From Synechococcus sp. UW69 (GTDB lineage Bacteria; Cyanobacteriota; Cyanobacteriia; PCC-6307; Cyanobiaceae), in the NCBI RefSeq assembly GCF_900474185.1, contig NZ_UCNW01000009.1, forward strand, positions 124,001 through 188,000: a stretch of 64,000 nt of DNA, given 5' to 3'. The notes beneath the pieces were generated by a model, which saw nothing but the letters and a program-made list of their open reading frames with translations, was not told the origin of the DNA and ran no database searches. The position numbers and the translations under genes were made by a program. Of this stretch, positions 49,674 to 52,963 are shown piece after piece (within the stretch, counting starts at the first letter, position 1; each line of letters begins with the position of its first letter).

Positions 49674-50582
49674 ATGGGTTGGTCCGCTGCTGACATCCCG
49701 AACCAGCAGGGGCGCATTGCCTTGATCACCGGAGCCAACAGCGGCCTGGGCCTCGAAACCGCGCGAGCCTTGAAACGCTGCGGGGCAACCGTGGTGCTGG
49801 CGTGCCGCAGCCCCCGCAAAGCGGAGACGGCCAAACAAGATTTGCTGCAGGAGCGGGATGGAGGTGCGGTGGATCTGGTGGATTTGGATCTAGCGGACCT
49901 GGCCAGCGTCCAACGGGCGGCGAACTGTATCGGCGAGCGCTACGGCTGCCTCGATCTACTGATCAACAACGCTGGAGTGATGGCGCCGCCGCGCCGGAGC
50001 ACCGCCCAGGGGCATGAACTGCAGTTCGGTGTGAATCACCTGGGGCACATGGCCCTGACCCAGGCGCTACTGCCGCTGATGCAGAACCGGCCCGACCCCC
50101 GGGTTGTGACGGTGACCTCCGGGGCCCAGTACTTCGGCAAGATCCACTGGGACGACCCCAGTTGGAGCAAGGGCTACGACCGCTATGGGGCCTATGGCCA
50201 AAGCAAACTTGCCAATGTGATGTTTGCCCTCGAGCTGGATGCACGCCTGCGCGAACAGGGCAGCCCCATCGGCTCACTGGCCGCCCATCCAGGCATCGCA
50301 CGCACCGAACTGCAACCCACGGCGATCGCCAGCGTTGGCAATCGCTTGGAGGCCCTGGCCTACCGGCTGATGGATCCCTTGTTTCAAAGCGCCAGCATGG
50401 GCGCCCTGCCGCAACTGCATGCCGCCACCGCAGCGACAGCGCAGGGTGGCGAGCACTACGGCCCTGAGCAGTTCGGTGGATTGCGGGGTGCACCGGCGCT
50501 CTGCCGTGTTGCCCCAGCAGCGAATCAACCTGCCGAACGGCAGCGGCTCTGGAGCTTGAGCGAGCAGCTGATCGGTGGCTGA
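49674..50582 (+). CDS. Short-chain dehydrogenase/reductase
   Basis: 302 aa classical SDR with NAD(P)-binding ALITGANSGLGLE, the NNAGVMAPP motif and the catalytic YGAYGQSK (Tyr-x-x-x-Lys). It resembles the light-independent, retinol-dehydrogenase-like SDRs often annotated next to protochlorophyllide reductase, but lacks clear evidence for that substrate. It starts an overlapping run: its stop overlaps the AAA/polyferredoxin start by eight bases. Confidence 0.85.
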   Translation: MGWSAADIPNQQGRIALITGANSGLGLETARALKRCGATVVLACRSPRKAETAKQDLLQERDGGAVDLVDLDLADLASVQRAANCIGERYGCLDLLINNAGVMAPPRRSTAQGHELQFGVNHLGHMALTQALLPLMQNRPDPRVVTVTSGAQYFGKIHWDDPSWSKGYDRYGAYGQSKLANVMFALELDARLREQGSPIGSLAAHPGIARTELQPTAIASVGNRLEALAYRLMDPLFQSASMGALPQLHAATAATAQGGEHYGPEQFGGLRGAPALCRVAPAANQPAERQRLWSLSEQLIGG

Positions 50583-52548
50583 ATCCAGCGCTGGGTTGCA
50601 GCGGTTGGCCCCCTTCGTTCTGGGCCGGGCCCGACGTGGCGTCGTGGGATCCAGTCGCTATGCCCAACGGCTGCGCAGTGCTGTGCTCGAGGCCGCCAGA
50701 GACCCGCAACGCCAGCCAGTGCTGATCAGCGGTGAGCCCGGCCTGGAAAAAGACAATCTCGCCGCCCTGGTGCACTACGGATCAGCGGAACGACGCCGTC
50801 TGCTGGTGCGACTAGATGCCAGTGATCTGCAGGGCAGCACGCTCAACCTGCTGAATGAGCTCGGATCCAGCACCCTGTTGGTGAGCGGCATGGACCGCAT
50901 CGACAACGAGCTCCAGCAACGCTTGATCGCGATGGCCCGTGGCGAAGTGCCAGGGTTCCATGGTCGTGTGCTGTTCACCAGCGAAGCCGCCATCCCGGCT
51001 CTCGATGGCCTGGTGCGAGCCATCCGCGTACCTCCCTTAAGGGTGCGCCGAACCGACCTGGGGGACTGGCTGCGTTACCGGCTGAGACTGCAGAGCCCTG
51101 GACTCGGTTGGAACCAACCACCAGCCCTGCCCGACAGCGTGGTGCGACGGCTTCAGAACCACGATTTCGCCAACAACCTGCGCGAACTCGAAGCGATGGT
51201 CGATCGCGCCTTGCGTCAGGCGCGTCAGCAAAGTCAAGGCGAGCTTCCACCATTGCTTCCCGAAGAGGTCTTCTGGACCGAAGACAAAGCACGGCGCACC
51301 CGTTTTGACGTTTGGCGCTGGAAACCGCAGTTGCGGGAGTGGATGCGCGCACCGGTGCTCTGGAACACGCTGCTGTTCGGCCTGGTGAGCTGGCTGTTCG
51401 TGGCTGTGAACCTGGCGCTCTGGCTTGGCCCCCAGGAGCGCGCAGCCAATCCGATGCTGACCCTGTTCTGGGCTTGGTGGTGGCCTTTGATCCTGCTGAG
51501 CTACCCGCTGGTGGGTCGACTCTGGTGCTCGATCTGTCCATTCATGGTTTGGGGAGAAATCGTCCAACGGATCACTCCATGGCGAAAAAGGAGTTGGCCC
51601 CATGGAGACCTGGACCGCTGGGGAGCTCCTGCTCTAGCCGCCGGGTTTGCCGCAATTCTCCTGTGGGAAGAGGTCTGGAACCTTGAAGACACCGCCTGGC
51701 TGAGCAGCTGCCTGCTGTTACTGATCACGGCCGGGGCCGTGATCAGCTCAACGGTGTTCGAAAAACGCTTCTGGTGCCGATACCTCTGTCCCGTCGGAGG
51801 CATGAACGGACTGTTCGCCAAACTCTCGATCCTTGAATTGCGGGCTGAAGTCGGCACCTGCAGCGGCAGCTGCAGCAGCTACGCCTGTTTCAAGGGAGGA
51901 CCAGCCGACGGCGAGGGGCTGGCAACCGAAGGCTGTCCCCTGGGCACCCACCCCGCCCACCTGAGCGACAACCGCAACTGCGTGCTCTGCATGACCTGCA
52001 CCCAGGCCTGTCCCAACCGCTCTGTGCAGTTGCGACTGCGCCCGCCTGCCGCCGATCTGCAACGCAACATGCAGGCCCCCGATGGAGAGCGCGGACTGAT
52101 CCTGGTGCTGGCTGGCGGACTCTGCCTGCACAACTGGCAGCGCCTGCTCGGCTGGCTGCCGCTTGCACCGTCTTCCTTGCATGAAGGCCCCCTGCTGGCA
52201 CGGCTCAGCTTTGCGGCGCTGGCCCTCGTTCTTCCGGCAGCAGCGGGTTTGTGGCTCAAACGCCGTTGGCTGTATGCCGGATTGCCATTGCTCTGGGCCC
52301 TGCTCCTGGCCCGCCATCTGCCCATCGGCATGGCCGAAGCGGGCACAGTTCTGCCGGATGGTTGGCCGCAATGGTCCGCCGACCCCCATGTCATCGGCTT
52401 CTGCCAGAGCGTGGTGGTGTTGATCGGGTGGGTTGGTGCTGTGATTTTGAGCCGCCGCTTGCTGGATCTCAACCGTCGGGCCTGGGTCAGAGGCACCATG
52501 GTGCTGCTCCTGGTCAGCCTCAGCGGCCGCTGGTTGGTCGCTCTCTAA
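50575..52548 (+). CDS. Degenerate NtrC-type AAA+ domain fused to a membrane polyferredoxin
   Basis: 657 aa, GTG start. Residues about 1-220 resemble the AAA+ domain of sigma54 activators, including LRVRRTDLGDWLRYRL and NNLRELEAMVDRAL. However, Walker A is broken (GEPGLEKDN, 53-61), Walker B lacks its DE pair (LLVSGMDRID) and the sigma54-contact GAFTGA loop is missing. Residues about 245-430 and 500-657 are membrane helices; between them lie NapH/CcoG-like cysteine motifs (WCSICP, CRYLCP, CVLCMTCTQAC). It is probably a membrane electron carrier with a non-catalytic regulatory or docking domain. It lies between an SDR and a Fur-family gene. Confidence 0.85.
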   Translation: MAESSAGLQRLAPFVLGRARRGVVGSSRYAQRLRSAVLEAARDPQRQPVLISGEPGLEKDNLAALVHYGSAERRRLLVRLDASDLQGSTLNLLNELGSSTLLVSGMDRIDNELQQRLIAMARGEVPGFHGRVLFTSEAAIPALDGLVRAIRVPPLRVRRTDLGDWLRYRLRLQSPGLGWNQPPALPDSVVRRLQNHDFANNLRELEAMVDRALRQARQQSQGELPPLLPEEVFWTEDKARRTRFDVWRWKPQLREWMRAPVLWNTLLFGLVSWLFVAVNLALWLGPQERAANPMLTLFWAWWWPLILLSYPLVGRLWCSICPFMVWGEIVQRITPWRKRSWPHGDLDRWGAPALAAGFAAILLWEEVWNLEDTAWLSSCLLLLITAGAVISSTVFEKRFWCRYLCPVGGMNGLFAKLSILELRAEVGTCSGSCSSYACFKGGPADGEGLATEGCPLGTHPAHLSDNRNCVLCMTCTQACPNRSVQLRLRPPAADLQRNMQAPDGERGLILVLAGGLCLHNWQRLLGWLPLAPSSLHEGPLLARLSFAALALVLPAAAGLWLKRRWLYAGLPLLWALLLARHLPIGMAEAGTVLPDGWPQWSADPHVIGFCQSVVVLIGWVGAVILSRRLLDLNRRAWVRGTMVLLLVSLSGRWLVAL

Positions 52549-52552
52549 AACC

Positions 52553-52963
52553 ATGGCCACTCGCCGCCCCTCAACGGAAATCAATGCCCGCCAGAAGGTG
52601 TTGCTGGAGAGTCTCCAGGCCTGTGGCGATGAGATGAGCGGTCAGCAACTGCACCGCAGCCTCGCTCCCGACCAAACCATGGGCCTGGCCACGGTGTATC
52701 GAAATCTGCGTCAGCTGCAGCAACGGGGCCTGGTGCGCTGTCGTCACCTGCCCAACGGCGAAGCGCTCTACGCACCACTGGAGCGGGATCGCCACCACCT
52801 CACCTGCGTCGATTGCGGCAAGACACAAGCGCTCGACCACTGTCCAATTCACGATCTGGAGGTACCCGAAGACCGCCGCAAGGGCTTCGATCTCCTGTTT
52901 CACACGCTTGAATTCTTTGGTCTCTGCAGCGACTGCCGCGAGCGGCAGCAAAATCCATCATGA
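52553..52963 (+). CDS. Fur-family metal-responsive transcriptional regulator
   Basis: 136 aa. A winged-helix DNA-binding half (TMGLATVYRNLRQLQQRGLV) precedes a metal-binding half with two CxxC pairs, CVDC and CSDC, for structural zinc. The Fur regulatory histidine cluster reads RHHLTC, and an extra cysteine occurs in LDHCPIHDLE, which recalls Zur-type proteins, so Zur is possible; Fur and PerR cannot be excluded. It begins four bases after the polyferredoxin stop and overlaps the next gene. Confidence 0.88.
   Translation: MATRRPSTEINARQKVLLESLQACGDEMSGQQLHRSLAPDQTMGLATVYRNLRQLQQRGLVRCRHLPNGEALYAPLERDRHHLTCVDCGKTQALDHCPIHDLEVPEDRRKGFDLLFHTLEFFGLCSDCRERQQNPS

Follow-up and report, generated by a model that had tools for sequence, protein, structure and literature searches.

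The closest described systems are of two kinds. Sigma-54-dependent activators (bEBPs) such as NtrC, NifA, FleQ and DmpR (PF00158/PF14532) carry an AAA+ core and lid with a P-loop, a catalytic Walker B glutamate, the GAFTGA motif, an arginine finger, a sensor-I asparagine and an NxxEL stretch at sensor II, together with a helix-turn-helix (HTH). VpsR, TyrR, DhaR and HupR, which deviate at GAFTGA and have lost the sigma-54 contact, are soluble DNA-binding regulators, and bEBPs without GAFTGA such as VpsR and TyrR are thought to work without sigma-54. TyrR, DhaR and HupR are named as 'non-functional' EBP homologs in a passage of a 2011 survey (PMC3162934). The second kind comprises the NapH, MauN, NosR and CcoG polyferredoxins, in which two Fer4_5 cysteine motifs lie by transmembrane helices and are accompanied by a ferredoxin-like cysteine segment.

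Here we analyse a gene that joins features of both. The window, 64,000 nucleotides of Synechococcus sp. UW69, holds on its forward strand a reading frame of 657 amino acids (50575..52548) with a GTG start at 50575 and its stop at 52548, which the list of open reading frames and the Pfam matches mark as a fusion of a bEBP-type AAA+ domain with a membrane polyferredoxin, and which exists as a single copy in its genome. Like the sigma-54-dependent activators, the protein has the AAA+ fold, a lid, a variant P-loop and an NxxEL sensor-II stretch; unlike them, it is without the catalytic glutamate, GAFTGA, arginine finger, sensor-I asparagine, HTH and sigma-54, and is fused to a membrane iron-sulfur protein. 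With VpsR, a top profile match, and with TyrR, DhaR and HupR it shares a bEBP AAA+ domain that has lost the sigma-54 contact, but it is membrane-bound and has no HTH. The cysteine motifs of the NapH, MauN, NosR and CcoG proteins are present too, with the difference that a C-terminal bundle of five helices is added and that long forms of the family further add an N-terminal CNB-AAA module. Every one of these domains is known; in the open-licence literature we found no paper on the family, nor any account of how they are combined, of how broadly the family occurs in Cyanobacteriia, of the conserved P-loop variant or of the contrast between two paralogs. Our leading reading, tentative and a little short of an even chance, is that of a membrane iron-sulfur oxidoreductase with a non-hydrolysing AAA+ platform or switch derived from a bEBP and a CRP-like sensor in front.

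The AAA+ core and lid occupy about residues 20-232 (50632..51270, forward strand). Pfam places Sigma54_activ_2 (PF14532) at residues 24-140 (28.3 bits with a cut-off of 25, E 2.3e-6); AAA_lid_14, at residues 158-219, is sub-threshold in the window protein (20 vs a cut-off of 27), yet each of the 25 aligned family members matches it at E<=0.01. The window protein has 391 matching stretches in our genome collection, the best 80 of which were examined, and 45 of these 80 loci plus the window formed the 46-row alignment given to AlphaFold (mean pLDDT 76). For the modelled N-terminal domain the top Foldseek ranks went to the AAA+ domains of FlrC, FleQ, NifA, DmpR and NtrC1, while the best VIA-align match was DmpR (6iy8_C; Z 16.3, rmsd 3.5, 211 aligned, model residues 18-237). 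A profile of the 25 family members run against PDB sequences returned NifA (1.3e-32) and VpsR (3.1e-32). Model and profile alike support a derivation of the N-terminal domain from the sigma-54-activator AAA+ family. The first-pass annotation of this DNA had proposed such a domain fused to a membrane iron-sulfur protein and had suggested a structural prediction; Pfam, AlphaFold, Foldseek and VIA-align agree on the fusion, and sigma-54 activators come out as the nearest folds.

It had also remarked that cyanobacteria are not known to have sigma-54, and our searches lead to the same view. PF04552 is absent from the genome of the window strain, and among 146 genomes of the class it matches in three, as short fragments only, which we rejected as sigma-54: their open frames span 94, 53 and 58 aa, and just one fragment exceeds the cut-off. 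Judged by these matches there is no convincing sigma-54 among the 146 cyanobacteria. The 2011 survey likewise gives sigma-54 and its activators as absent from 29 cyanobacteria; since it selected on GAFTGA, the present family would have dropped out of it (PMC3162934).

In order to define the state of the motifs, we counted residues over 133 distinct AAA domains (91 picocyanobacterial, 31 from long forms of the main paralog, A, and 11 from a second paralog, B), identical domains and one short row having been removed; three annotated bEBPs aligned alongside the family showed the canonical residues. The P-loop of the window protein, GEPGLEKDN (residues 53-61; 50731..50757, forward strand), keeps G53, G56 and K59, and only the glycine preceding the lysine has changed, to glutamate. 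The lysine is present in 133/133 domains. The residue before it is glutamate in 84/91 picocyanobacterial and 23/31 long A domains and glycine in all 11 of paralog B, and Asp-Asn follows the lysine in 122/122 picocyanobacterial and A domains. From picocyanobacteria to the long-form relatives GEPGL(E/G)KDN is near-invariant, a conservation which argues that it is a maintained P-loop variant and that Walker A is altered, not lost.

The remaining catalytic positions are in a different state. In the Walker B stretch (about residues 100-108; 50872..50898, forward strand) the motif alignment puts serine and glycine in place of Asp104 and Glu105 in the window protein; across the 133 domains the catalytic glutamate is found in none, and the aspartate in 78/91 picocyanobacterial, 0/31 long A and 7/11 B domains. 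GAFTGA is absent from all 133, its loop being shortened, and the motif alignment shows a shorter, unlike segment where the arginine-finger stretch FRxDLYxR would stand. At sensor I the canonical asparagine has given way to glutamate in 122/122 picocyanobacterial and A domains and to proline, alanine or serine in the 11 B domains, and the sensor-II arginine is kept in 83/91, 17/31 and 0/11 domains of the three groups, respectively. No HTH occurs among the 14 Pfam families found in the 25 family members. The earlier view of an ATPase-dead domain is well supported by these sequences, which lack catalytic glutamate, GAFTGA, arginine-finger stretch and sensor-I asparagine; of its accompanying statement that Walker A, Walker B and GAFTGA are all lost, the parts on the Walker B glutamate and GAFTGA stand and that on Walker A goes too far, the lysine being universal. 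In paralog A the invariant sensor-I glutamate could pair with the P-loop lysine and plug the pocket. Paralog B, with its canonical GxGKT P-loop, could probably still bind nucleotide. A homologue with intact Walker motifs and sigma-54 in the same genome had been named as evidence that would count against a dead domain; what exists is this paralog with intact Walker A, without the catalytic glutamate, in a class without convincing sigma-54.

The membrane half begins with two predicted transmembrane helices at residues 260-313 (51352..51513; this and the following features on the forward strand; AlphaFold and hydropathy). These are followed by a first Fer4_5-type cysteine pair, C318 and C321 (51526..51537), and a second, CxxxC, pair formed by C401 and C405 (51775..51789; Pfam Fer4_5 at 381-417), both invariant in the A1 alignment. 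Next come a soluble segment with eight cysteines (C429, 433, 438, 454, 469, 472, 475 and 479; 51859..52011) and a predicted C-terminal bundle of five transmembrane helices at residues 503-655 (52081..52539; AlphaFold and hydropathy). Fer4_5 matches the window protein in two stretches (Pfam, E 5.7e-10). All 12 cysteines, the eight of the soluble segment included, are invariant in 25/25 rows of the family alignment, and that segment would have room for two [4Fe-4S] clusters. The AlphaFold model contains nine helices, eight of which are also hydropathy peaks above 1.2; the cysteine segment 421-493 is poorly modelled (pLDDT < 50). Basic residues concentrate in loops 233-259, 314-346 and 395-502, and by the positive-inside rule this predicts one and the same cytoplasmic location for the AAA domain and the 12 invariant cysteines. 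For a separate model of residues 255-657 Foldseek gave no solved fold at E<=0.001, and the best VIA match, a TMEM16 chain (Z 7.0, rmsd 4.3, 98 aligned), has a Z in a range that the notes of VIA describe as common. Among named NCBIfam models NapH TIGR02163 comes closest to this half, at 26.3 bits far below its cut-off of 213.05, and the NapH/CcoG likeness first proposed extends no further than the Fer4_5 motif. A stand-alone polyferredoxin on Deinococcus ficus pDFI1 (WP_027463891.1) matches the membrane and iron-sulfur half of the long forms (query residues 450-827, 31.6% identity); unlike the present family it has neither an AAA nor a CNB domain, and Fer4_5 alone is recognised in it. Its gene (L131:5027-7308) overlaps an upstream gene of 308 aa without a Pfam match.

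The search for this architecture in cyanobacteria that the first-pass annotation had recommended shows it to be common: of 289 Cyanobacteriia genomes, 202 have a match to the family model at E<=1e-60, in 100 of 128 genera, and in the window's own family (Cyanobiaceae) the gene is present in 51 of 101 genomes. Sixteen of the 25 aligned members are long forms of ~850 aa with an extra N-terminal cNMP_binding (CRP-type) domain, which the picocyanobacterial members of that alignment do not have. The usual architecture is CNB-AAA-polyferredoxin, and the CNB domain was lost in the picocyanobacterial clade. A tree of the iron-sulfur part separates the picocyanobacterial clade and the paralog B clade, each by a branch with 100/100 support, and places the long A forms in the middle; its outgroup branch is very long, which leaves the root unsure, and A rows L153, L154 and L159, in which the cutting motif is missing, and identical rows were left out. 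Beyond Cyanobacteriota the analysis covered plasmid records and the best 80 of the 391 loci of the pattern scan. Of 1842 plasmid records that match the long form, two cover >=80% of it, and these come from cyanobacteria; the same two, of 1182 matching, are those found with paralog B. One B copy, on plasmid2 of Aulosira laxa (AP018309.1; L133:5878-8592), is annotated 'nitrogen assimilation regulatory protein', a misleading name for a protein without an HTH; a divergent gene upstream of it reads as MerR-like from its sequence. Matches marked 'same phylum' (E about 1e-4 to 1e-14), which we take to be Vampirovibrio-like, extend over the polyferredoxin alone wherever their ranges are given, and we left them out of the family. 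A picocyanobacterial-type copy filed under a Bifidobacterium breve MAG (L059, CALPNT020000003.1) is mislabelled or contaminated, and two differing copies in MAG CO36386bin_29 (L004 and L013, 78% and 62% identity) suggest a mixed bin.

In the window, the 5' end of the gene overlaps an upstream SDR gene (49674..50582, forward strand; Pfam adh_short) by 8 nt, and a gene for a Fur-family regulator (52553..52963, forward strand; Pfam FUR), one of three in the genome, begins 4 nt past the stop, followed by a metallo-beta-lactamase-fold gene. SDR and Fur are neighbours at the level of the genus, whose members conserve the order SDR, gene, Fur; in 4 of 10 genus genomes the gene is missing and SDR and Fur adjoin. 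Beyond the genus the SDR gene does not belong to the system, and paralog A has no conserved neighbour there (cluster table; 124 of 186 listed neighbour proteins scanned at 28 of 31 loci, with L135, L137 and L182 left out). For paralog B, a cysteine synthase gene (cysK) lies on the same strand <=600 bp downstream at 9/14 loci, vs 0/31 A loci. Its wider surroundings (119 of 178 proteins at 13 of 14 loci, L164 being left out as a near-copy of L165) include four rhodanese proteins, three of cytochrome bd, three HdrB-like, two of the NifH/ChlL family and two psbA products; on the strength of cysK and these neighbours, the B branch points to sulfur or low-oxygen metabolism. In L164 and L165 (G157 and G261) paralog B sits among HdrB- and HdrC-like matches and a nitronate-monooxygenase-like gene. 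NtcA-type sites (GTA-N8-TAC) show no enrichment upstream of either paralog, with 2/31 A loci (3.4 expected) and 0/14 B loci (1.75 expected). We also discarded a dedicated hydrogenase role, as no hydrogenase match turned up in the window's genus, where the gene is present; by eye, the 101 genomes of the window's family divide into 37 with both, 14 with the gene only, six with hydrogenase only and 44 with neither. In L182 a second copy (G415:C29:17588-18277), 61% identical to the window and broken by two stops, has a gene for a hydrogenase large subunit at a distance of ~2 kb.

These surroundings bear on two other readings. The protein may be a membrane-tethered redox-sensing regulator, whose clusters sense the redox state, with the dead AAA domain as the docking site for a transcription factor or for sigma-70 RNA polymerase; the Fur-family gene directly after it in the window, the CRP-like sensor kept in the long forms and VpsR as nearly the best PDB profile match would all suit such a role. 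We nevertheless regard it as unlikely, given that the Fur gene persists in genus genomes from which the 657-aa gene is deleted, that the Pfam families of the 25 members include no DNA-binding domain and that conservation is stronger in the membrane redox half. Similarly doubtful is a reductase of metal centres or cofactors in the manner of CcoG or NosR, in which the polyferredoxin would feed electrons to the assembly or repair of a metalloprotein and the AAA domain would serve as a chaperone platform: two Fer4_5 stretches as in NapH/NosR-type proteins and a weak NapH family match speak for it, but that match falls short of the model's cut-off by a wide interval and no partner gene is conserved beside paralog A.

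Selection was estimated from nine pairs with relatives (Nei-Gojobori), in many of which dS exceeds 1, so that those ratios are rough. The dN/dS of the AAA core is 0.12-0.24 in 9/9 pairs, that of the lid 0.05-0.25 (8/9 pairs defined), that of the Fe-S/TM part 0.05-0.11 and that of the C-terminal helices 0.09-0.20. The ratios indicate that the AAA domain is under purifying selection and not in free drift, as would be expected if it had kept a structural or regulatory function; to that extent the ratios agree with the earlier suggestion of a recruited scaffold, be it structural or, more speculatively, redox-controlled. At the same time the gene can be lost. Two of the gene-less genus genomes keep its first ~20 and last ~27 nt, a third has two short coding remnants and the fourth only ~24 nt between the matched parts of the neighbours (scar loci L213 in G264, L215 in G314, L212 in G225 and L214 in G289); such remnants at the SDR-Fur junctions show repeated loss of the gene within the genus through internal deletions. 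Among the 51 copies in the window's family the frame is broken in five, by a shift in three and by a stop in two, which may be sequencing error, and these together with the repeated losses in the genus show that many picocyanobacteria can do without the protein. Such losses and broken copies, the missing catalytic motifs and an AAA core that evolves faster than the Fe-S part could be taken to mean that the domain is a drifting leftover and that the ferredoxin half works alone; with the low dN/dS of the core, a fold that is intact in the AlphaFold model and a variant P-loop and sensor-I glutamate that are near-invariant from picocyanobacteria to long forms, we find this very improbable. A working pump that hydrolyses ATP and pushes electrons uphill is hardly credible, for although the P-loop lysine is universal and paralog B has a canonical GxGKT and keeps the Walker B aspartate in 7/11 domains, the catalytic glutamate occurs in 0/133 and the sensor-I asparagine and arginine-finger stretch are missing.

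Returning to the oxidoreductase with a non-hydrolysing AAA+ platform, the following course of events and mechanism can be envisaged. A CRP-like sensor and a bEBP-type AAA+ module would have been fused ahead of a membrane iron-sulfur protein, and the AAA+ module has shed the features that hydrolysis and sigma-54 contact require. The C-terminal half, which has nine transmembrane helices and whose 12 invariant cysteines are predicted to face the cytoplasm, may form the electron path, while the AAA+ platform would hold subunits together as an oligomeric scaffold and relay a signal to the redox part. With the P-loop glycine and the sensor-I asparagine both replaced by glutamate, the main paralog probably has a pocket that is plugged or binds very weakly; that of the second, with GxGKT, can probably still bind nucleotide, and its cysteine synthase linkage hints at sulfur or low-oxygen metabolism for that branch. 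In the clade of the window the CRP-like sensor has been lost, and in the marine lineage also the stub of the L1 loop. We further speculate, as a bolder and doubtful extension, that cyanobacteria, without a convincing sigma-54, made of a bEBP motor domain a switch that catalyses nothing itself but acts on a membrane protein of electron transfer, with the pocket of one paralog locked by the P-loop and sensor-I glutamates and that of the other reading nucleotide (energy charge or an alarmone), which would control the supply of electrons to sulfur or low-oxygen metabolism.

Altogether, these observations bring to light a widespread cyanobacterial membrane iron-sulfur protein that has been masked by labels such as 'nitrogen assimilation regulatory protein' and 'cyclic nucleotide-binding domain-containing protein'. 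They also show that the AAA+ domain of a bEBP survived, domesticated, in a group without detectable sigma-54. The pair of paralogs, one with an altered and the other with a canonical pocket, lends itself to testing how a dead AAA+ domain might serve a protein of electron transfer, and the cysteine synthase linkage of paralog B provides a concrete way into its pathway.
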